From: a virus
Strand: one strand, 5' to 3'
IMG/VR virus record: IMGVR_UViG_3300031566_000180
Span: 1-36,698 of that record
Length of the DNA: 36,698 nt
The position numbers and the translations under genes are program-made. Every line of letters starts with the position of its first letter. The first letter of the stretch is position 1. This document shows, in pieces, positions 764 to 15,778 of this stretch. A model generated the notes under the pieces. The model made no database searches, had not been told where the DNA came from, and saw only the letters and a list, made by a program, of their open reading frames with translations.

Positions 764-1837
764 TTAAGCGGAGCGGCGGGCGCCGTCCGCAGCGAAGTGC
801 GAAGTTCGCATCTTGAAAAAGCTAGCAACGTCCGCGGTGCAGCCGCTCCACTCCAGAAGATCAGTCAGCGTGCCTGTCGCGGGCAACGCCTTCATCGCGG
901 TCGCCGCGTCCATCATGGAGAGGAGCAGCTTAACCCAATTGCTGATCTTGCCCCACTCAGTCGTTCCACTGTGATGGCGGACTTCAATCGTTCCATGAAC
1001 GGCGAAGCTGCGGGGGTTGACTGTCCAATACCGGCCAGCGTGCGAGCTCAGAAGATTGCGACATGCTGCTCGCGTGCTGAAAGTCTGTCCGCGAAGCGCG
1101 CTGTTGATGGGGTGCGCGTACTGATTGTTATGGCGGCTGCGCGGCATGAATCCGTTGATCGCCTCTTCAAAGAGTGCGTAGGCTGCGAAAAACCGGCAGT
1201 AGCTCTGCTCACTCATCTCGCGCGCGTCCAAGTGGACATGCAAACCGCAGCTTGCGTTGATAGTCGCGCCGCCGTTGGTCGTTGCTTCGCAAACCTTATA
1301 AAGCTGCGCGAAGCCCTGTTCGCCGCTCAGCTTGGGGCTAACCACTTCGCTGCCGCCGTACACGCTAGCGTCCGTCACGATCTTCCAATGGTCTCGCAGC
1401 GAATGATTGTAGCCTTCAACCGCTGCGGGAATGCCGCTGCCGGTTATGGCGGTCTGCATTCGCGAGCGATCGCCAATCAATTCAAGCTCAACGCCAAAGG
1501 CGCGACCTTCAGTGCTCAACTCAGGGAAGAGGCGCGCGATCGCTGCCGTCTGCGTCTGAGCAGCGGCGGAGCGGCGGGGGCGCGACACAGTGCGACGCGA
1601 AGTGCGAATCCCGCTCAGCGTCATGACCGCGGGCTGGTCTGCATAGATAAAGCGGATATTCCAAGAGCGGCGGCAACTTGTGCACGTGCGGCGCGAGATC
1701 CCAAGGCCTGAAAGATAGAGGGGGTATCCGCATTCGCAGCGGACGCGGAACGCGTTCTGCTCATGCCCGCGGCCATCGCGGCGGATAACCGGCGCGCTGC
1801 GCTCGTAACCGCGCTCGCTGTTGGTGGGTGCCGGCAT
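764..1837 (-). CDS. Amidoligase (Amidoligase_2 superfamily) with N-terminal zinc ribbon
   Basis: 357 aa. An N-terminal zinc ribbon is visible (C34-x-C36 and C52-x2-C55). The catalytic region starts with FGVELEL at 114-120, followed by VTDAS at 154-158, GGSEVVSP at 161-168, CGLHVHLD at 197-204 and GTIEVRHHSGT at 282-292. This is the pattern of the ATP-dependent COOH-NH2 ligases related to glutamine synthetase, in which the E-x-E, the EVVSP Glu, the histidines and the final E-x-R bind metal and ATP. Members form amide or isopeptide bonds. The start is supported by AAGGAG 8 nt upstream. It is the first gene of the leftward block, followed by the 82-aa gene and the GGCT. Family call is firm; substrate unknown. 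The zinc ribbon may recruit a partner. Confidence 0.85.
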   Translation of the reverse strand: MPAPTNSERGYERSAPVIRRDGRGHEQNAFRVRCECGYPLYLSGLGISRRTCTSCRRSWNIRFIYADQPAVMTLSGIRTSRRTVSRPRRSAAAQTQTAAIARLFPELSTEGRAFGVELELIGDRSRMQTAITGSGIPAAVEGYNHSLRDHWKIVTDASVYGGSEVVSPKLSGEQGFAQLYKVCEATTNGGATINASCGLHVHLDAREMSEQSYCRFFAAYALFEEAINGFMPRSRHNNQYAHPINSALRGQTFSTRAACRNLLSSHAGRYWTVNPRSFAVHGTIEVRHHSGTTEWGKISNWVKLLLSMMDAATAMKALPATGTLTDLLEWSGCTADVASFFKMRTSHFAADGARRSA

Positions 1838-6772: not shown

Positions 6773-7553
6773 CAAGTCAAGTGGAGAAACAGTGGACCCG
6801 CGCAAGCTCGTTTGGTTTTTGTACGGCCCGCCGGGAATTGGAAAGTCGCTGCTAGCGTCGGGGTTCGGCAGCTCAGTGCTCTACCTTTGGACTAGTAGCG
6901 TCAAGTATATCGACGCGTACAAGCAGCCAATCATGGACTGGCGCAGCTTCGTCAAGGCCGTCCGCGAACTTCAGAAGTTGAACGGCAAGCGGTATAGCGC
7001 AGTCGTCGTGGATACGATCGATCTTCTTTGGATGCTCTGCAGGCAGCATGTCCTTGAAGCGCGCGGCATTGAGCACGAAACCGATCTGTCGCATGGCAAA
7101 GGCTTCGACATGGTGCGGCGAGAGTTCATTCCGGTTATCGCGAAGCTGACCACCTGCGGCTATGGCGTCGTTTTCGTTTCGCATGCAAAGGTTCGCGACT
7201 CCAACCAAGGCGGTCGCGGCGTGCGAATGGATCGCATTGTTCCGACGCTGCAAGACTCTGCGAAGGGGATCATCCTTCCAATCTGCGATGTCGAAGGCTA
7301 CTTGGGCTTTTCTGCTGAAGACGTTGACGAAGATACGGGGAAGCGCCGCATCTTCTTTCAGCCGACTGGAATCATCGAAGCAAAGGATTGGACTGATCGC
7401 TTGCCGAAGCAGATGGAGCTAGTCAAGGATCCCGCAGCAAACTATGCGGAGCTCACCAAGCACTTGCTTTCAGAAGGGCGCGGGTCAACGGCCACCCCGC
7501 ACCGCAAGAAGAAGAAGAAGACGGCCACCAAAAAGAAGAGGACCACTGAATGA
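6753..7553 (+). CDS. AAA_24 family P-loop ATPase, Sak4-like single-strand annealing/recombination protein
   Basis: 266 aa from TTG 6753, supported by GGAGAGG about 6 nt upstream. GPPGIGKS at 25-32 is the Walker A motif, VVVDTIDLL at 84-92 Walker B, and VVFVSHAK near 138-145 the sensor strand. This is the compact RecA-like core found in phage Sak4/AAA_24 proteins, which work with a single-stranded DNA-binding protein in annealing or strand exchange. The C-terminus is a basic tail (RKKKKKTATKKKR). The next gene, a DUF669-like protein, overlaps by 4 bases, the usual pairing for this family. Confidence 0.8.
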   Translation: MSALPTDKSSGETVDPRKLVWFLYGPPGIGKSLLASGFGSSVLYLWTSSVKYIDAYKQPIMDWRSFVKAVRELQKLNGKRYSAVVVDTIDLLWMLCRQHVLEARGIEHETDLSHGKGFDMVRREFIPVIAKLTTCGYGVVFVSHAKVRDSNQGGRGVRMDRIVPTLQDSAKGIILPICDVEGYLGFSAEDVDEDTGKRRIFFQPTGIIEAKDWTDRLPKQMELVKDPAANYAELTKHLLSEGRGSTATPHRKKKKKTATKKKRTTE

Positions 7554-8581
7554 GCGTTAGCGCAAAGGAACAGAAAACCCTTCAGAAGATGTGGAAGGGC
7601 GCAAAGGATACCGGCGGCAATCAGTTGGACGCGCCCGATGGGACGTATCAGTTCAAGATCGCCAAGGCGGTTTTCAAAGTGAGCGGCACCGGCAAGCCCA
7701 TGGTTTCGGCTGTTTACGAAATCGTTGGCGGCGACGAAGAGTACGTAGGCGTCAAGGGTTCGCAGTTCGATAATCTGGAGACGCCTGACAACATGGGCTG
7801 GTTCAAGCGCAAGCTTGGACGGCTTGGAATCAAGGTGCCTGCAGATATCGGTGAGCTGCTTGACGGAACCGTTTGCGAGGAAATGAATGGCCGCGTATTC
7901 GAAGGCGTCCTGCGAACTGCAAACGATTTCCAGAACCTCTACGTGAACAAGCTAGTCTCCAAGGACGGCGACGACGACGACGACGAAGAGGAAGAGGAGT
8001 CAAGCGAAGTCTCGGATGGAGCTCGCGTGACCTTCAAGCGCAAGGGTGCAGTCGTTGAAGCAACCGTCATCGAAGTCGACGAAGACGAAGAGACCGCGGT
8101 TTGCGAAGAGGACGACGGCAAGGTCAGCTCCAAGAAGTTCAGCGCGCTGACGATTCTGTCTGCGGACGCGGACGACGAAAACGAAGAGGAGGATGAAGAA
8201 GAAGAGAGCGACGACGACGACGACGACGATGCGGAAGGCGAAGAAGAGAGCGACGACGACGAAGAAGAGACTGAGGACGAAGAGGCTGGCGAAGAAGAGG
8301 CGGACGAAGAGGAAGGCGATGAGGCGGAATGGCCCGAGAGTTCTGCCGCTGCGTCCAAAGACTTCACGAAAGCAACCGCAGGCGAGTGCCTTGAAGCGTT
8401 CGGTTTCGCGGTTGATAAGCAGCCGAAGAAACTTCTCGTCGACCTTTGCAAGGTTGATGAAGGTGCTGCCCTCCCGCTCGGGCGGCTGAAGATTCTGGCT
8501 GCCGCAATTGGTGTGAAGATCATCAAGGGCGTTACTCCCAAAGCGCTTGCGAAGAGTATCAAGGCCAAGTTGGCTGCGTAG
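7550..8581 (+). CDS. DUF669-like single-stranded DNA-binding protein with a long acidic tract
   Basis: 343 aa. Residues 10-135 resemble DUF669 proteins, which act as phage ssDNA-binding proteins beside AAA_24 ATPases. A short acidic run (139-150) leads to a small beta domain (156-200, GARVTFKRKGAVVEATVIEV) that looks like a Tudor/SH3-type barrel. Residues 205-261 are almost pure Asp/Glu, and a helical domain closes the protein (268-343). Acidic tails of SSB proteins bind partner enzymes, but this tract is internal and unusually long. AGAGGA lies 8 nt before the ATG. Function by family and context; the acidic insert is the odd part. Confidence 0.7.
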   Translation: MSVSAKEQKTLQKMWKGAKDTGGNQLDAPDGTYQFKIAKAVFKVSGTGKPMVSAVYEIVGGDEEYVGVKGSQFDNLETPDNMGWFKRKLGRLGIKVPADIGELLDGTVCEEMNGRVFEGVLRTANDFQNLYVNKLVSKDGDDDDDEEEEESSEVSDGARVTFKRKGAVVEATVIEVDEDEETAVCEEDDGKVSSKKFSALTILSADADDENEEEDEEEESDDDDDDDAEGEEESDDDEEETEDEEAGEEEADEEEGDEAEWPESSAAASKDFTKATAGECLEAFGFAVDKQPKKLLVDLCKVDEGAALPLGRLKILAAAIGVKIIKGVTPKALAKSIKAKLAA

Positions 8582-8695: not shown

Positions 8696-11218
8696 ATGAA
8701 CTCCAAAAAGATTAGCAAGGAACTACTGCGTCGAATCAACTTGACTGACGCTATCGATGACTTGGTTGAAGGCGCGTCCACCGGCGATAACGTCTGCTGC
8801 CCTTTCCCTGAGCGCCATGAGTCCGGCAACGACAGCACTCCATCGTTTGGAGTAGACCCTGACAACGCCGGCCGCTCGTTCTGCCAAGGCTGCGGCTATA
8901 AGTCGTCGACGATAGTTGGGCTAGCGCAAGACTTGCTAGGCCTGTCGTATCGCAACGCAATTAAGCATCTCTGGACTGAGCATGTCGAGAAGCTAGTCCC
9001 CGACTCCAATGTATCGCATGCTCATGGAGCGCTCGCGAATAATCCGCTCTTGATTGGACGACTCAAGAAAAAGCGCGGTATTTCTGAAGCTGCCGTGTTG
9101 CGGCATAGGCTAGGCTGGGCTGGCGATCGCCTTTGGATTCCAATTGAGAACGAGCAAGGCCTTGTCGTCGACGTTCGCAAGCACGATCTACTGGGTCGCA
9201 GAAAAGCAGGCGCGCCCAAGATCTTCAGCTATGGCAAGAAGGGCGATGGCTTTGGAGGCGCGCGGATCTATCCGTTGAGCTCGCTCAAGCGCAGCGTGGT
9301 CGTGCTCTGCGAAGGCGAGCTAGACGCGATCCTAGCTATCGACCGCGGGATCAACGCCGTGACCATTACGAGCGGCGCGCACACGATGCCCGCTGAGCTT
9401 GCGAAGAAGTTCAAAGGCTTGAAGGTTCTAGTCGTGCCGGACAACGATAAGGCTGGATTGGCGGGCGCACGCAAGCGAGCCAAGGCCTTAACCAAAGCAG
9501 GCGCGCGAGTGATTCTGCTTGACCCCCCGCCTTGGCCGAAAGGCAAAGACTTGGGCGATTGGCTGCATGGCGGCGGCGGCAATGCTGAGCTGCTGAGACA
9601 AGCAGCGTCAGGCGTTGGCGAAGAAGAGGCTAAGCCCGTCGCGTCCGTTGCGTTGGAGTTCGAGACTTCAGAAGCTGAAAACGAAATGGTCGAGCGCGCG
9701 GAGCTGGTTCTGTCGCTGCTTGAATCACGCGGTGGATTCTTTCGCGGCAACGACGGCGAATCCTACTACGCGGAGCGAGCGGGCAGTGGATCAATGGCTG
9801 TCGGCGGCGCTCACTTCCTTGGGCATCTGTCGCGAATCAATCCTGCAATCAATTCAGCAACGTCGTCCGGTCGCTTCGTTATCAACCACTTGAAGTCAGC
9901 TGCGCTAGGGCGCGCAAGCAAAGTCACGATGGGCGCTTGGTCGCTCTATCATAACCAAAGCGTTTACCTCTACGCGGGCAAGGGCCGAACGCTTTGCGCG
10001 ACGCCGAAGTCGGTCACGATGCTGGACGACTCAGTGCAGACGCACTCAGTGCTGATTGATACGCCGCGCGAGCATGCTGCGGTTAAGTGGATCAAGTCCG
10101 CGCAGCCAAACGAAGCTGTTGCTGCGGCGTGGTCCATCGTTGGTAGGAATATCGCTTGCGACGATTCGTACCGCTATCTCTCGATGTGTTGGATCATGAG
10201 CCTGTACTTCAGGGAGTATATTCGGGCGAAGCCAATCCTTCGATTCGTTGCGAGCAGCGGCGGCGGCAAGACCACTGCGACCAAGTTGATTTCGCACTTG
10301 ATCTATGGCGAAGAAGTCATGTCGCACTCCGCGAGCACGATCGCAAGTAGCTACGCGATGGCTCAGTCGCACCCAATCCTTTTGTTTGATAACGTCGAGA
10401 CTCGCAACCTAACGCAGCCGTTTGAAGACTTCCTGCTGACCGCTGCGACCGGCGGATCAAAGACGAAGCGCGCGTCAGGAACTGACAGCGCCATCGTAAC
10501 GGAGCAAGTCAACTGCTTGATTGGGACCAACGGTATCGAGCCCTTCTCCAGAAACGAACTGATCGCGCGGACCATTGAGATTGAGCTTGACCTCGAGAAG
10601 TATGGCCGCGCGAACTTCCATGAGTACCGAGAAGTCAAGCGAGCATCAGAGCAGCGCCATCAGATTCTATCAGGCTGGTTGAAGCTCGCGCAGCAATCCA
10701 TCCTACCGCGAATCAAGAGCGGCGAAGTTTCAAGGATCGCGCACGAATTCCCGCACCATTCAATGGAACGCTTCAACGACCATTGGGCGCTGATGGCGAT
10801 CTGCTCAGATATCTGCTTCGCGTTCAGACCGTCAAACAAGTGGAACACCGCTCGCGATTTGGTAAGTGAATGGCTGGAAGAGCAAGACCGCAGCGCGTCA
10901 GAACGCAAGCAATCAACGAGCGAGCTGCTCTACTATCTGGAGACGCTAGTCGATCGGCATGGATCGCTAAGCGATACGCGCGTCAAGATTACTGAGCGCG
11001 ATGGCAAGACCTACCTACGCGCGCAAGCCAACCAGCTCTTGACAGACTTTCAGATCCTTGCAAAGCATCTCGGTCAGCGCTGTCCTTGGAGCAATGCTAG
11101 ACAGCTTGGAGTCCGCCTTGTTGACGCGGAGTCTATGCTTTCCAATGCAGGTTGGACGCGATCAAAGAAGATGGTTTCAGGCCGCATGCTCACAGTTCTG
11201 ACCAAGGAGAAGAGATGA
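8696..11218 (+). CDS. Primase-helicase: CHC2-type zinc finger, TOPRIM and P-loop helicase domains
   Basis: 840 aa. The zinc finger uses C35/H41 and C63/C66 (CCPFPERH and SFCQGCGYKS), as in DnaG-type primases. The TOPRIM domain shows VVVLCEGELDA at 201-211 (Glu206) and LVVPDNDKAG at 245-254 (Asp248, Asp250). The C-terminal half carries ASSGGGKT at 519-526 (Walker A), ILLFDNVETR at 561-570 (Walker B) and LIGTNGIEPFSRNELIARTI near 608-627 (sensor/arginine finger). It therefore joins primer synthesis and DNA unwinding in one chain. It follows the hairpin at 8611-8669 and overlaps the kinase gene by 4 bases. Confidence 0.88.
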   Translation: MNSKKISKELLRRINLTDAIDDLVEGASTGDNVCCPFPERHESGNDSTPSFGVDPDNAGRSFCQGCGYKSSTIVGLAQDLLGLSYRNAIKHLWTEHVEKLVPDSNVSHAHGALANNPLLIGRLKKKRGISEAAVLRHRLGWAGDRLWIPIENEQGLVVDVRKHDLLGRRKAGAPKIFSYGKKGDGFGGARIYPLSSLKRSVVVLCEGELDAILAIDRGINAVTITSGAHTMPAELAKKFKGLKVLVVPDNDKAGLAGARKRAKALTKAGARVILLDPPPWPKGKDLGDWLHGGGGNAELLRQAASGVGEEEAKPVASVALEFETSEAENEMVERAELVLSLLESRGGFFRGNDGESYYAERAGSGSMAVGGAHFLGHLSRINPAINSATSSGRFVINHLKSAALGRASKVTMGAWSLYHNQSVYLYAGKGRTLCATPKSVTMLDDSVQTHSVLIDTPREHAAVKWIKSAQPNEAVAAAWSIVGRNIACDDSYRYLSMCWIMSLYFREYIRAKPILRFVASSGGGKTTATKLISHLIYGEEVMSHSASTIASSYAMAQSHPILLFDNVETRNLTQPFEDFLLTAATGGSKTKRASGTDSAIVTEQVNCLIGTNGIEPFSRNELIARTIEIELDLEKYGRANFHEYREVKRASEQRHQILSGWLKLAQQSILPRIKSGEVSRIAHEFPHHSMERFNDHWALMAICSDICFAFRPSNKWNTARDLVSEWLEEQDRSASERKQSTSELLYYLETLVDRHGSLSDTRVKITERDGKTYLRAQANQLLTDFQILAKHLGQRCPWSNARQLGVRLVDAESMLSNAGWTRSKKMVSGRMLTVLTKEKR

Positions 11219-11820
11219 ACTTCAGAGCTCGATCTATTATCGCATTCGAAGGCCCTGATGGGGTTGGGAAGACGACGCTGCTTAATCAAGTCGCGGTAGA
11301 GCTTCTGCGGCAGGGCGTTCCTGTTACTGTGGTTGATTACAGAGCATCAGAGACGGGCCGCGCCGCGTATGATCTCGCGCGCGACCACGACGGCAACGAA
11401 ATGACCCGCCGCTATCTGATGGCTGCGGCAGCGGAAGAGGCGCTTGAACTGGTCTATAGCAAGTGGAACGAGTCGCTGATTCTGCTTGATCGACTGCACC
11501 CCGTTAGCGACTGGTGCTACGGCAGCGCATCGGCTGAACTCGCAGCGCATACGGATCGTTGGATTGGGCTTACCGAAACTCAGCATTGGCCGCTGGTCGA
11601 TCTGCTATTCGTTCTGAGGTATCGCCATCGCAAGCCAACGCATGCGCTCGAGCGAAGAGACGTCGACAAGTTCTACGCAAACACGAATCAGCTTAGGTTG
11701 CTTTCTGGCGCGGAAGGGCTTGATATTCTAACGGTTAATAAGCCTGCCGACGAAGGCGTTCTAGTCGCTGAAGTTATCAAAGTGATGATTGAAGAAACGC
11801 TGATAGAGGTGTCAGAATGA
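11215..11820 (+). CDS. Thymidylate kinase-like deoxynucleoside monophosphate kinase
   Basis: 201 aa from ATG 11215, preceded by AAGGAG and overlapping the primase-helicase stop in ATGA. IIAFEGPDGVGKTTLL at 8-23 is the P-loop of the dTMP kinase family, and LLDRLHPVSDWCYG carries the conserved DR motif that binds the nucleotide. The usual reaction is dNMP + ATP to dNDP. It is followed directly by a ThyA-superfamily gene whose product probably supplies its substrate; if that product is a modified dCMP, this kinase may be tuned to it. Exact specificity cannot be read from the sequence. Confidence 0.8.
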   Translation: MNFRARSIIAFEGPDGVGKTTLLNQVAVELLRQGVPVTVVDYRASETGRAAYDLARDHDGNEMTRRYLMAAAAEEALELVYSKWNESLILLDRLHPVSDWCYGSASAELAAHTDRWIGLTETQHWPLVDLLFVLRYRHRKPTHALERRDVDKFYANTNQLRLLSGAEGLDILTVNKPADEGVLVAEVIKVMIEETLIEVSE

Positions 11821-12659
11821 ATACCGCGTTTGATGGAGTCTATGTCGAGCTACTCGACTTCGTGCTCGCAGCAAAAGAGGAGCAAGACCAACGGACCGGC
11901 ATCTACTACCGCGCGCGTCCCGGCCTTTCGTTTAGCTGCGGCCATGGCGGCGGACTGCCGCTCGTCTCGCTGCGGAACATCAACACCAAGTGGTTCTGCG
12001 CCGAAGCGGTTTGGCATATGAGCGGCGGCCGCGATCCCGACTTCATGAAGACCTACGGCTTCAACGCTTGGAGTAAATTCCCGCAGTCGATGAATTGGGG
12101 TCCGACATTTCGCGGCCGCGGCGATGGCATTGACTTGCTGCTTAAGGGCGTCGCTGCGCTACGACATGATCGCACCAAGAAGTCCATCGTCTTCCAGCTC
12201 TTCGAGCGCGACGACATTGGCCGTTCGCATCGGCCTTGCATCTCGTCCATGGCGCTTTCGGTTATCGGTGAAACGCTGCATACGACGGTGCTCCAACGAA
12301 GCGCTGACCTCTACTTCGGACTTCCGCATGACGTCGCCGGCATCGCGATCATCCGCGCTTGGATCGCTCGCTATCTCAACTTGAAGATCGGCGCGATCTA
12401 TTGGACGGTGGCCAACGCGCACGTCTACGCCAATCAGTACTTTGCAGCTCACGCGATGGTCGAGAAGTTTTCAACTCGAACTGGTATCGCGTCAGCTGAT
12501 TCTATAGTTCCGTCTTGCACGGCAGAATGGAAGCGCGCGATCCAAGGCGAGCCAACGCTAGTATTTGATTTGCATCGCGTAGTCGAGGCTGACTATCTGA
12601 AGTTCAATCCACCCAAGTCTCATAGGGGGATTGCAATCATAGGGGGCGTGAATGATTAG
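11817..12659 (+). CDS. Thymidylate synthase superfamily enzyme with the Asn-to-Asp change of dCMP-specific relatives
   Basis: 280 aa. A gapless alignment by spacing to E. coli ThyA places Cys141 at catalytic Cys146 (HRPC), Gln160-Arg161-Ser162-x-Asp164 at QRS-x-D, and His202-x-Tyr204 at HxY. The position of Asn177 (PFNIA), which recognises dUMP, is Asp172 here (PHDVA). Asp at this site is known from T4 dCMP hydroxymethylase, and the Asn-to-Asp mutant of thymidylate synthase accepts dCMP. Arg126-Arg127 are replaced by Lys121-Lys122, and the residue after the catalytic Cys is Ile rather than His. The enzyme is thus divergent and may act on dCMP. Neighbours are a dNMP kinase and a DHFR-like reductase. 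Confidence 0.75.
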   Translation: MNTAFDGVYVELLDFVLAAKEEQDQRTGIYYRARPGLSFSCGHGGGLPLVSLRNINTKWFCAEAVWHMSGGRDPDFMKTYGFNAWSKFPQSMNWGPTFRGRGDGIDLLLKGVAALRHDRTKKSIVFQLFERDDIGRSHRPCISSMALSVIGETLHTTVLQRSADLYFGLPHDVAGIAIIRAWIARYLNLKIGAIYWTVANAHVYANQYFAAHAMVEKFSTRTGIASADSIVPSCTAEWKRAIQGEPTLVFDLHRVVEADYLKFNPPKSHRGIAIIGGVND

Positions 12660-13149
12660 CGCAAGTATAGTGGTTAGCTTGGATGGACGAATTGGAAAGC
12701 CGAATAGCATTGAGCACGGCGGCTGGACGAGCAGCGAAGACAAGGCTAAGTTCTGGAAGCTGGTTAAGCAGTCGCAGCTCTCAATCGTCGGCGCGAATAC
12801 TTGGAACGGCTTCTCTGCGTCAACAAAGACTCGCTTGGTCGCCAACTCCAGGGTCTTGCTCTACTCCGGCCGTAACAGCACGCACTCCGAGGATCTTCTA
12901 AAGCATGCGCTCAGTTGCAGCGTGGACGAAGAGGTTCTGATCTTGGGCGGCGCGAAGACGTTCTACTTCTTCCGCCATGTTATTCACTGCTGGAACATTA
13001 CGACTGAGCCTGTTCTGTTGGCGTCGGGGCCGTCGCTCTTTCCGTTGCTTGCAGACGACAAGAACCGCATTCCAGTCTTCCTGCAGATCGAGCGGCTTAA
13101 GCAACTGAACGCAGAAGGGACTATCCATGCGGTGTATACGAAACGATAA
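12652..13149 (+). CDS. Dihydrofolate reductase-like protein (DHFR/RibD C-terminal fold)
   Basis: 165 aa. It begins MISASIVVSLDGRIG, the first strand and loop of the DHFR/RibD-C fold, followed by LSIVGANTWNGF at 43-54 and VLILGGAKTFYFF at 94-106, the NADPH-binding glycine motif. It overlaps the ThyA-like gene by 8 bases. Thymidylate-type methylation oxidises methylene-tetrahydrofolate to dihydrofolate, which DHFR recycles, so the pairing suggests the neighbour is a reductive methylase rather than a hydroxymethylase. It is shorter on motifs than classical DHFR, so another pteridine or pyrimidine reductase is possible. Confidence 0.65.
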   Translation: MISASIVVSLDGRIGKPNSIEHGGWTSSEDKAKFWKLVKQSQLSIVGANTWNGFSASTKTRLVANSRVLLYSGRNSTHSEDLLKHALSCSVDEEVLILGGAKTFYFFRHVIHCWNITTEPVLLASGPSLFPLLADDKNRIPVFLQIERLKQLNAEGTIHAVYTKR

Positions 13150-13342
13150 GTCTAAGCCTACCTTTGCGCTAGTTCAAGCTCCCGCGCAGCTAATACGAAT
13201 CGAGCTGCGGCCGTGCAAAGTATGCTTTGAAGTCATGACGATCTCCTCTCGCATTCCTGGCGGGCGTCGACGACAGTCGAAGTACTGCAGCAACGCGTGC
13301 AATCAGAAGGCCAAGCGAATGAGAGCAAAGGAAACACGATGA
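13127..13342 (+). CDS. Small zinc-finger protein
   Basis: 71 aa from ATG 13127, with AAGGGA about 7 nt upstream and a 23-base overlap with the reductase gene. The C-terminal half has RPCKVCFEVM and SKYCSNACNQKAKRMR, a CxxC...CxxxC knuckle followed by a basic helix. This is a common small phage nucleic-acid-binding module. It ends in ATGA with the deaminase gene. Specific role unknown. Confidence 0.65.
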   Translation: MRCIRNDKSKPTFALVQAPAQLIRIELRPCKVCFEVMTISSRIPGGRRRQSKYCSNACNQKAKRMRAKETR

Positions 13343-13848
13343 ATGACGAAGCGCAAACCTATCTCCAGTTCAACGAAGGCTCAATAGGTCAAGTGCAGAT
13401 TCTTCGACGCCTCTCTAGCTTCGGCAGCCACGTTGATCGCATGCAACGCTTCGCCGCTGAAGTCGCGAGCTGGAGCAACTGTCCCATCGGTCGAAAGCAT
13501 GCCTGCATTCTAACGCTCGAGGGGAAGTACATCATCTCGACCGGCTATAACGGGACTGCGACCAAAGAGCCGGAGTGCGTTTGCGAAGGCAAGCGCAAGG
13601 GCTGGTGCATGGAGAACTGCGTCGCCGTTCATGCGGAAGTTAACGCGCTCGCGAACGCTGCGCGCATCGGCGTTTCAGTACTCGATTCGATAGCGTACGT
13701 GACCAAAGCGCCCTGCCTGCCGTGCCGCGCGGCGCTAAAGAACAGCGGAGTCCATGTGATAATCTGGGACCAAGCCAATGACTCGCTCAGCGTACCTAGA
13801 GACTCGTTCGAAGCTCTCGAAGACTTCGGGTTCTACGCGCGTGGCTGA
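13339..13848 (+). CDS. Deoxycytidylate (dCMP) deaminase
   Basis: 169 aa from ATG 13339, which overlaps the previous stop in ATGA and has AAAGGA upstream. The catalytic zinc site is clear: HAEVNAL with His98 and Glu100, and APCLPC with Cys126 and Cys129. Extra cysteines (CVCEGKRKGWCMENC) probably bind a second zinc, as in T4 dCMP deaminase. The reaction is dCMP to dUMP, feeding dTMP synthesis. Having it beside a ThyA-like enzyme that may itself use dCMP is noteworthy: the two could compete for dCMP or act on different derivatives. Confidence 0.85.
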   Translation: MNDEAQTYLQFNEGSIGQVQILRRLSSFGSHVDRMQRFAAEVASWSNCPIGRKHACILTLEGKYIISTGYNGTATKEPECVCEGKRKGWCMENCVAVHAEVNALANAARIGVSVLDSIAYVTKAPCLPCRAALKNSGVHVIIWDQANDSLSVPRDSFEALEDFGFYARG

Positions 13849-15778
13849 TCCGCTCGGCTCAGGTCTGCTGCTTGTCGTTGATCTAGAGACCAACGGCCTT
13901 GATCCTGAGAAGGGTCATACGCCGTTCTTGATCGGGTTCCAACGCGAAGGCGAAGGCCGTACTTGGAAGTTCGATATGCGTGGCAACGCGCCCAAGGCCG
14001 ATGATATTCTTGGCGCTGACCATCCCAAGCTTCGCGAGTTCATGAACGACATTGAAGACGAATCCGTTATCAAAGTCGCGCATAACGCTAAGTTCGAAAT
14101 CAGAATGTTGCGAGCTATATACCTCAAGCCGCGCGGTCCGTGGTGGTGCACGATGAACATGACCGTGCTCCATGACGAGTATTCAAGGCTCTCGCTTGAT
14201 TGGCTTGCGCAGCGATACTTTAAGGAGGAGTATACCGAAGACCACTTGATTACGGAATGGCTTTCGCAAGAGCGACGCGCACGGCGCAAGCACTATCGCA
14301 ACGAAGGTTGGGATCATGACGACGCGCCTGAACCGACCTACGAAGACTATTACGCTCAGCACCCTGACGTGATGAGCTGCTACCTTGAAAAGGATTTGGA
14401 TCATACGCTGCGGCTTGCGTTACAGTTCCGCGTCGGCTGCACTACCAAGTTCAGGACGCCATTCGAAACGGATACCGCGCTCGTCCCGTTCGTTGCAGAC
14501 ATGGAGGATAACGGGATCTACGTTGATCGCGAGTTCTGCAAGCTCAACTTCAAGAAGTATTCGAAGCTAGCGCGCAGCGAGAAGAAAAGAATTTGGGACA
14601 TCGCTGGCGAGACCTTCAACTTGGATTCGCCGCAGCAACTGAAGTCGATCTTCCACCGGCTAGGCTACGAAATATCTGACACGCGCAAGGATACGCTCTA
14701 CGCTCTTGAAGGCGAGTTCGCAAAGGCGCTGCTTGAATATAGAGCTGACTCCAAGATCGCGCGCTGGTTTCGAACATTCCTTTTGGACTCGCAGCACGAC
14801 AGCCTGATCCACGCGAGCTTCTGGCAGAACGGCCAAGACCAAGGAATCAAGACGGGCCGCTTCTCAATCAAAGATCCAGGCTTGCAAACGATTCCCGGCG
14901 GCTACCGCGGAACCGTTGGACAGCGTGGTAAAGACGTTCGCCGCGCGATCAAGCCTAGGCCCGGTCACAACCTGTTCATGGCCGACTATGCTCAAGTCGA
15001 ACCGCGGATCTTGGCGGAGTATACGCAGGACGAACGCTTGCTGACAGAGCTGCTCGCGGGTCGCGATATATACTTGGCCTTCGTGCGGATCTTCTTTGGC
15101 AAGACGCCGTTCAAGAAGGGGAACGAAACTCTCTTGGCTCAGCGGCGCAGCGACGCGAAGACTATCATCCTTGCTATCACCTATGGAATGGGCGTCGACA
15201 AGATGGCTCGCAACCTTGGAGTCGTCTCTAGCGTTGCGCGCGGTATGCGAGCGCAGGCCATGACTGAGATGCCGACGATGAAAGAGTTCATGGATGACTG
15301 CTCCCGCACCGTCGCGCGGCTTGGATATATCGATGACCTTTGCAGCCGCCGCTACCGCGTTCCTCGCGATCGTTCATACAAAGGCATCAACGCAATCATT
15401 CAAGGACTCGCTGCTCAAGTCATGAAGCGAGCGCTTGCACGCGTCGGCTATCTCATCAACATGTGGAATGAGATGCAAGGCCAAGAAGACTCCAAGGTTA
15501 GAGCTCGCATGCTGCTCACGGTCCATGACGAAATCGTCTTTGAAGTTCCGATTGGTCAAGAGGACGAGCTCTGTCCGTTGGTCCGCTTGCAGATGGAGAG
15601 CGCTATGCCGGAGCTCAAAGTTCCGCTTGTCGCGGACATGAGTTGGGGACCGCACGGCGCAAGCTGGGGCGACAAAGTTGATTGGCGCGAAGGAGCTGCG
15701 CTCGAACCAATCGCGATCGCGTCCAAGGCTGCAAGCGCCGACCTTGCCGGCGTTCGAGGCATCGGCAATATCGACTAG
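13841..15778 (+). CDS. Family A DNA polymerase with 3'-5' exonuclease, Leu at the Phe762 position
   Basis: 645 aa from GTG 13841, chosen because it overlaps the deaminase by only 8 bases; an in-frame ATG at 13778 would add 21 residues without a ribosome site. Numbers below use the longer form. The exonuclease motif VVDLETNGL has Asp35 and Glu37. Polymerase motif A is ADYAQVEPR (Asp403), motif B runs from Arg457 and Lys461 to Tyr469-Gly470, and motif C is TVHDEIVFEV (Asp584). There is no 5'-3' exonuclease domain. The residue four after the motif B lysine, equivalent to E. coli Phe762, is Leu465. It is the main replicase and the last gene of the rightward block. Confidence 0.9.
   Translation: MADPLGSGLLLVVDLETNGLDPEKGHTPFLIGFQREGEGRTWKFDMRGNAPKADDILGADHPKLREFMNDIEDESVIKVAHNAKFEIRMLRAIYLKPRGPWWCTMNMTVLHDEYSRLSLDWLAQRYFKEEYTEDHLITEWLSQERRARRKHYRNEGWDHDDAPEPTYEDYYAQHPDVMSCYLEKDLDHTLRLALQFRVGCTTKFRTPFETDTALVPFVADMEDNGIYVDREFCKLNFKKYSKLARSEKKRIWDIAGETFNLDSPQQLKSIFHRLGYEISDTRKDTLYALEGEFAKALLEYRADSKIARWFRTFLLDSQHDSLIHASFWQNGQDQGIKTGRFSIKDPGLQTIPGGYRGTVGQRGKDVRRAIKPRPGHNLFMADYAQVEPRILAEYTQDERLLTELLAGRDIYLAFVRIFFGKTPFKKGNETLLAQRRSDAKTIILAITYGMGVDKMARNLGVVSSVARGMRAQAMTEMPTMKEFMDDCSRTVARLGYIDDLCSRRYRVPRDRSYKGINAIIQGLAAQVMKRALARVGYLINMWNEMQGQEDSKVRARMLLTVHDEIVFEVPIGQEDELCPLVRLQMESAMPELKVPLVADMSWGPHGASWGDKVDWREGAALEPIAIASKAASADLAGVRGIGNID

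Follow-up and report, generated by a model that had tools for sequence, protein, structure and literature searches.

Which nucleotide is the substrate of the thymidylate synthase (TS) superfamily protein encoded at 11817-12659 (plus strand) of IMG/VR virus record IMGVR_UViG_3300031566_000180, and what is made from it? Phage enzymes with aspartate at residue 177 are routinely annotated as thymidylate synthases though this residue predicts a cytosine substrate, and viruses with altered cytosine dodge bacterial defences. In the whole stretch analysed, 36,698 bases and called the window here, the minus strand encodes the terminase, portal and head proteins, and the replication genes lie on the plus strand. 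Its open reading frame (ORF) at 11817-12659 is intact, starts with ATG, encodes 280 amino acids and is the only ThyA-family match in the whole record. With moderate confidence, we read it as the gene for a divergent deoxycytidine monophosphate (dCMP) C5-methylase, which would make 5-methyl-dCMP for DNA, for thymidylate, or for both. The gene and the codons on which the argument turns are as follows.

11817-12659, plus strand: TS-superfamily protein carrying Asp172 where E. coli TS has Asn177; predicted to be a dCMP C5-methylase
12096-12098, plus strand: Trp94 codon at the place of the catalytic Tyr94 (Phe98 in an alternative alignment)
12180-12185, plus strand: Lys122-Ser123 codons at the place of Arg126-Arg127
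12228-12230, plus strand: His138 codon; the residue stands three positions ahead of the catalytic Cys, where T4 dCMP hydroxymethylase has Asp145 and E. coli TS has Leu143
12237-12242, plus strand: codons of the catalytic Cys141 and of Ile142 (the His147 position)
12330-12332, plus strand: Asp172 codon, equivalent to Asn177 of E. coli TS

The protein is ThyA-like, as a first-pass annotation of the window had proposed. It matches PF00303 with an E value of 1.1e-26 (94.1 bits against a cut-off of 24.3) and PHROG 160, 'thymidylate synthase', with 4e-33, far past chance. The NCBIfam thymidylate synthase models fall well short, the best giving 75.4 bits against an equivalog cut-off of 327. An AlphaFold model from 46 sequences has the TS fold (mean predicted local distance difference test score, pLDDT, 79.2; predicted template modelling score 0.78). 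Its nearest solved folds in Foldseek are thymidylate synthases (E about 1e-17), and TS chains top both the Foldseek and the VIA lists; the VIA comparison with 4gev_A gives Z 24.3 and a root-mean-square deviation of 2.8 over 236 residues. The C-terminal 55 or so residues (227-280) are mostly modelled at pLDDT below 50. In TS this tail closes the active site, a role that it may retain in the window protein. A second public contig, IMGVR_UViG_3300031673_000385 (L002), shares 99.93% DNA identity over 8834 bases and encodes an identical protein (100%, residues 1-280), so the active-site residues are not private to one assembly. Assembly error as the source of the odd residues was set aside on these grounds.

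Residue equivalences rest on sequence alignments. The numbering of E. coli ThyA (MG1655) was carried over through three alignments of different size, and residue counts refer to 106 aligned relatives, after removal of two alternative-start duplicates; before the 109-row alignment was made, identical sequences had been taken out, as had the copies of the window itself (L001, L002, L023). Asp172 stands at E. coli Asn177, inside a gapless motif (QRSADLYFGLPHDVAG / QRSCDVFLGLPFNIAS). The motif is gapless in every alignment, so that a false alignment at Asp172 was set aside; this bears out the substitution that the first-pass annotation had read from gapless spacing. The catalytic Cys, QRS-x-D and HxY motifs, which it had listed as kept, are indeed present: Cys146 is Cys141, Q165-R166-S167-x-D169 is Q160-R161-S162-A-D164, and H207/Y209 is H202/Y204. 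Arg21, Glu58 (Glu63 in the window protein), Trp80 (Trp85) and Gly173 (Gly168) are conserved as well. All 106 relatives share Cys146, Arg166, Ser167, Asp169, His207 and Tyr209. Asp177 occurs in 99 of the 106 rows, a figure that is no frequency, since LP[YH]D is required by the very patterns used for the scan; of 14 phage records fetched from among those that the window itself matched by tblastn (280 in total), 9 carry Asp and 5 carry Asn.

Further positions are altered, several of them beyond the changes first noted: His147 is Ile142, Leu143 is His138, Trp83 is Phe, and Tyr94 is lost. Phe176 is likewise changed, to His. None of the 106 relatives has Ile at 147, His at 143 or Ser at 127, which makes the enzyme a distinct type rather than a copy of a known subgroup. 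E. coli ThyA thus resembles the window protein in fold, catalytic Cys, Glu58, Trp80 and QRS-x-D, but its Asn177, His147, Tyr94, Arg126, Arg127 and Trp83/Leu143 pair are all altered there.

Residue 177 is reported to set substrate choice, an Asn to Asp change switching TS from deoxyuridine monophosphate (dUMP) to dCMP and yielding 5-methyl-dCMP (PMC8670742). The same role has been ascribed to Asp186 of MilA and Asp179 of T4 gp42 (PMC5175136, PMC6400193). Both precedents named by the first-pass annotation, T4 dCMP hydroxymethylase and a dCMP-accepting TS mutant, are found in these sources. The substitution that turns TS into a dCMP methylase in the E. coli N177D and L. casei N229D mutants (via PMC8670742) is natural in the window enzyme, which unlike the mutants is much more divergent and has several further active-site changes. 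Across 433 TS sequences, the two positions that most clearly told enzymes on cytosine-modified phage contigs from those on unmodified ones were 177 and 147 (PMC8670742), and both are altered here. A ribonucleotide (CMP) enzyme like MilA is barely credible. Lys122 does lie at the place of MilA Lys133, one of two CMP-selecting residues (PMC5175136), yet the second selector, MilA Ala176, corresponds to Ser162, a deoxyribose-type residue, and five other rows also pair Lys126 with Ser167.

The nearest phage enzymes likewise point to dCMP. When 50,697 phage records were searched with the window TS by tblastn, 280 matched, all at less than 60% identity. Top scores fell to Bradleyvirinae, among them Donnerlittchen, Mallos, Elanor and PaMx74, to Rhodobacter phages and to Steinhofvirus JWX. 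All enzymes read among these top matches have Asp177 with Pro147, and the genes of these relatives run in the order pyrophosphohydrolase, 'thymidylate synthase', dCMP deaminase, mostly with dihydrofolate reductase (DHFR) as well. Many phage genes (L004, L006, L007, L009, L014, L015) are annotated 'thymidylate synthase', or 'ThyX-like' in Rhodobacter phage RcSimone, yet are ThyA-type with Asp177 and probably encode dCMP methylases. Close relatives were looked for with the TS, polymerase and primase-helicase proteins. In each case the near-identical IMGVR_UViG_3300031673_000385 was the sole close match, and the TS search additionally gave one distant TS (L003). The kinase and DHFR-like proteins of the window gave no tblastn match in the phage collection.

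Likeness to phage XP12 is drawn here through the XP12 group in our alignments, namely AXL1, Elanor, PaMx74, Donnerlittchen and Mallos. XP12 DNA contains 5-methylcytosine in place of cytosine, as reported from base composition by liquid chromatography-mass spectrometry, and resists 196 of 218 type II enzymes (PMC7653180). XP12 is classed as Bosavirus, Bradleyvirinae (PMC11946847), and Bosavirus is also the genus in the sequence record of AXL1. AXL1 has been described as a close relative of XP12 whose DNA only 5 of 31 restriction enzymes cut; its DHFR is active in the host, and the genetic mechanism of its DNA modification was called unknown (PMC9206674). AXL1 gp63 has Asp177. The XP12 deaminase is reported to convert 5-methyl-dCTP to deoxythymidine triphosphate (dTTP), with Trp128 near the methyl group (PMC12088426), and the deaminases of AXL1 and Elanor have Trp at 128. 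We infer that the Asp177 'thymidylate synthases' of the XP12 group are dCMP methylases.

The window gene lies in a cassette that resembles that of the XP12 group, with the following neighbours on the same strand.

11152-11820, plus strand: P-loop kinase of the thymidylate-kinase family (PF02223, E 6.4e-7; PHROG 761 thymidylate kinase, 1.8e-11)
12652-13149, plus strand: dihydrofolate-reductase-like protein whose gene overlaps the 3' end of TS (PHROG 316 dihydrofolate reductase, E 4.9e-5)
13127-13342, plus strand: small Cys-rich ORF within the operon, listed as an ORF only
13297-13848, plus strand: dCMP-deaminase family protein, possible start 13342 (PF00383, E 7.8e-13; PHROG 174 dCMP deaminase, 7.3e-26)
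13778-15778, plus strand: family A DNA polymerase, the next same-strand gene (PF00476, E 9.2e-63; PHROG 17)

The kinase gene probably starts at ATG 11215, overlapping the primase stop, and overlaps the TS start by 4 bases. The DHFR-like protein has W-T-x(3)-D-K-A-x-F-x-L in common with phage DHFRs. The deaminase has HAE, PCxxC and GYNG motifs and matches the XP12-group deaminase profile at 4.5e-13. Within 3 kb of the Pro147 loci, pyrophosphohydrolase was found for 47 of 47 rows, dCMP deaminase for 45 and DHFR for 38, as judged with neighbour profiles built from Pro147-clade phages. Several of these phages are themselves in the count; the comparison is partly circular and favours this clade. 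The corresponding counts are 0, 1 and 0 for the 28 Asp/Glu143 rows, 0, 0 and 1 for the four Asn177 rows, and 1, 0 and 0 for the other 19.

The window protein shares with the XP12 group (Bradleyvirinae, with relatives in Steinhofvirus and in Roseobacter and Rhodobacter phages) the TS superfamily, Asp177, the loss of His147, the retention of Glu58, Trp80, Cys146 and RS-x-D, and a dCMP deaminase and a weakly scoring DHFR as neighbours. It differs in that identity is at most 31%, in having Ile147 rather than Pro and His143 rather than Asn, in the loss of Tyr94, and in Lys/Ser for Arg/Arg or Arg/Gln. The gene order is kinase-TS-DHFR-deaminase in the window and pyrophosphohydrolase-TS-deaminase-DHFR in the XP12 group, and the portal match indicates a different phage.

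Deaminase, TS and DHFR also make up the ordinary thymidylate pathway, and the protein could be a thymidylate synthase still working on dUMP, with Asp172 tolerated and the phage deaminase supplying the substrate (dCMP to dUMP to deoxythymidine monophosphate, dTMP). A search for ThyX in the record found none, nor was a second ThyA found there, and AXL1 gp63 and gp62 have been described in this way (PMC9206674). We nevertheless consider this very unlikely: Asp177 with loss of His147 marks cytosine-modified phages (PMC8670742), ordinary TS in the alignment keep Asn177 with His147, and the NCBIfam TS models remain far below their cut-off.

For a predicted dCMP enzyme, a second question is whether a methyl or a hydroxymethyl group is added. 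In a dCMP hydroxymethylase such as T4 gp42, water attacks the exocyclic methylene and 5-hydroxymethyl-dCMP results. T4 gp42 is like the window protein in its Asp at 177, its catalytic Cys and Glu, and its HxY motif. It is unlike it in having Asp three residues before the Cys, Ser-x-Tyr, and Arg-Arg. The first two of these form a proposed hydroxymethylase signature, Asp or Glu three residues before Cys plus Ser-x-Tyr (PMC6400193). The acid is kept in nine T4- and SPO1-type rows and is His138 in the window; Ser/Thr-x-Tyr (Ser94 and Tyr96 in T4) is Met92-Asn93-Trp94. His138, at the place of the water-activating Asp145 of T4, could itself serve as a base.

Trees were built with columns 177 and 147 omitted (143 too in the 49-row tree), and for the 92-row tree 17 sequences were first removed as near duplicates or fragments. 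In the 49-row tree a branch (99/95) puts the window with the TS and XP12-like rows on one side and all 18 rows of hydroxymethylase type, T4 gp42 included, on the other. A phylogeny against ThyA and the dCMP and dUMP hydroxymethylases had been put forward as a check by the first-pass annotation; it separates the protein from the hydroxymethylases but assigns it to no clade inside the TS/XP12-like part, and approximately unbiased (AU) tests firmly reject none of the placements. Membership of the XP12-like clade is neither supported nor rejected (p 0.44), and p is 0.19 with TS, 0.106 with dUMP hydroxymethylases, 0.077 with the aGPT-type and 0.055 with the T4-like rows. A weak branch (79/44) even joins the window with hydroxymethylases against TS plus XP12-like rows, which places it at the foot of the methylase part. 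The window branch in the 49-row tree is very long, at 1.96 changes per column. Bit scores are 112 for the XP12-like profile, 98.9 for TS and 95.5 for hydroxymethylase, from profiles that differ in depth.

The neighbouring genes bear on the same choice. DHFR is needed only where folate is oxidised, as in methylation. This is established TS chemistry, and the point has been made for MilA and T4 (PMC5175136); a DHFR-like gene overlaps the TS gene although hydroxymethylation leaves tetrahydrofolate unoxidised. Pfam scans of 29 window ORFs, in which structural genes were partly covered, found no glycosyltransferase or carbamoyltransferase. Taken together, tree, signature, profile scores and DHFR moderately favour a methylase, and a hydroxymethylase appears somewhat unlikely. 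The preference for dCMP that the first-pass annotation had proposed is supported by Asp177, the loss of His147 and the XP12-group relatives and neighbours, and of its two alternatives, methylase and hydroxymethylase, the former is preferred; a fully normal enzyme is not what the missing Tyr94 suggests.

Asp177 was also seen in other settings. A group of viral TS (L063, L065, L069, L070, L072-L075, L077, L079, L080, L082) has Asp177 but is otherwise TS-like (His/Tyr147, Leu/Ile143, Trp83) and branches beside ordinary TS, likely a second origin of dCMP specificity. Two lone Asp177 TS, in Microbacterium phage Stoor (L019:2474-3406) and Escherichia phage ES2-BCU-3 (L021:2480-3364), with Met and Tyr at 147, have long branches and fall outside the large Asp177 groups. 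Among Thr147/Asp177 homologues (L003:5815-7744 and L086-L116), 31 of 32 share a locus with an aGPT-Pplase3/ADDT-type gene (PF18746/PF18724), which usually adjoins. Most of these homologues have Asp/Glu143, a dCMP hydroxymethylase signature, though the domains are named for thymine hypermodification; the cassette, found mostly in bacterial chromosomes, may hypermodify cytosine. In a published list of defence genes, aGPT-Pplase counts as predicted and a thymidylate synthase domain as validated (PMC13092281).

If the protein is a dCMP C5-methylase, Cys141 would attack C6 of dCMP while Asp172 would read and protonate the cytosine edge. Methylene-tetrahydrofolate would give the carbon, which would be reduced to methyl, with 5-methyl-dCMP and dihydrofolate as products, and the DHFR-like protein, whose gene overlaps, would recycle the folate. 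The dTMP-kinase-like protein, also encoded by an overlapping gene, may take 5-methyl-dCMP on towards 5-methyl-dCTP, a substrate for the DNA polymerase encoded nearby in the operon, and phage DNA would then contain 5-methylcytosine. The deaminase may convert part of the 5-methyl-dCMP (or 5-methyl-dCTP) to dTMP (or dTTP).

Several observations weigh against this scheme, besides the AU tests and the long branch described above. The XP12-like combination of Pro147 and Asn143, seen in 49 of the 106 relatives, is Ile142 and His138 in the window. Ser125-Arg126-Arg127 corresponds by gapless spacing to Lys121-Lys122-Ser123, so both phosphate arginines are gone; the Lys-Lys that the first-pass annotation had given for Arg126-Arg127 was off by one. 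At position 126, 99 relatives have Arg and 5 have Lys; of the remaining two, one has Ser and one a gap. All 104 relatives with a residue at position 94 have Tyr there, and the window protein has Trp94 in most alignments and Phe98 in the TS-profile alignment. An alignment artefact was considered here, and since there is no Tyr anywhere in residues 81-165 the loss stands under either alignment. Tyr94 serves to take the proton off C5, and T4 dCMP hydroxymethylase lost its activity through the equivalent change Y96F (PMC6400193).

The cassette raises similar doubts. A pyrophosphohydrolase stands beside all the Pro147 rows, whereas neither it nor a dUTPase was found in the window record, which may be a fragment and lacks terminal repeats. 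As no dCTP-removing enzyme was found, complete replacement of cytosine is harder to imagine. The DHFR-like gene is weak, with no hit better than its PHROG 316 match (RibD_C at 0.003 is below cut-off), and the XP12-group DHFR profile does not match it at all; the AXL1 DHFR is likewise low-scoring, with DHFR_1 at 2.1e-5 (below cut-off) and RibD_C at 5.8e-6 (above cut-off).

Loss of Tyr94, change of both arginines and the long branch leave room for an enzyme that may be weak, altered or dead. The extreme form, a broken or repurposed TS-fold protein, such as a nucleotide-binding or regulatory subunit, with no efficient catalysis, seems to us distinctly unlikely. The joint loss of Tyr94, Arg126 and Arg127 on so long a branch would fit it, as would the poorly modelled C-terminus, and selection is not measurable with one population known. 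However, Cys141, Glu63, Trp85, QRS-x-D, Gly168 and His202/Tyr204 are all retained, and the ORF is intact in two contigs, with reading frames that overlap the kinase and DHFR-like genes.

On one further reading, which we hold unlikely, thymidylate is made through cytosine: the Tyr94-less enzyme would methylate dCMP, with another residue or water removing the proton in place of Tyr94, and the neighbouring deaminase would make dTMP, bypassing uracil nucleotides. As no pyrophosphohydrolase that would remove dCTP was found, the predicted methylase might on this reading serve to supply thymine, or to put 5-methylcytosine at some positions of the DNA, and not to replace cytosine completely. If 5-methyl-dCMP is made with no dCTP-removing partner, the two uses of 5-methyl-dCMP in XP12, DNA modification and thymine supply, would be separated. 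The principle that Asp177 leads to dCMP is already in print; what is new is the lineage, the loss of Tyr94, and an operon with a kinase and with no detectable pyrophosphohydrolase. Among the papers listed in a PMC collection for XP12, dCMP methylase and related terms, no title or abstract opening describes a Tyr94-less enzyme of this kind. The window enzyme is a deep lineage of its own, and the collections searched contain no close relative of the phage that carries it; the loss of a Tyr otherwise invariant in its relatives could reveal another way to carry out the proton step of a much-studied enzyme.

Elsewhere in the window, a putative amidoligase lies at the left end of the record (764-1837, minus strand; PF12224 E 1.5e-25, PHROG 2443 E 3.1e-38). 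An acidic, low-complexity protein is encoded between the Sak4-like annealing gene and the primase (7550-8581, plus strand). Within this gene, near 8208, contig L002 has a 3-base insertion relative to the window, one of four differences in 8.8 kb.

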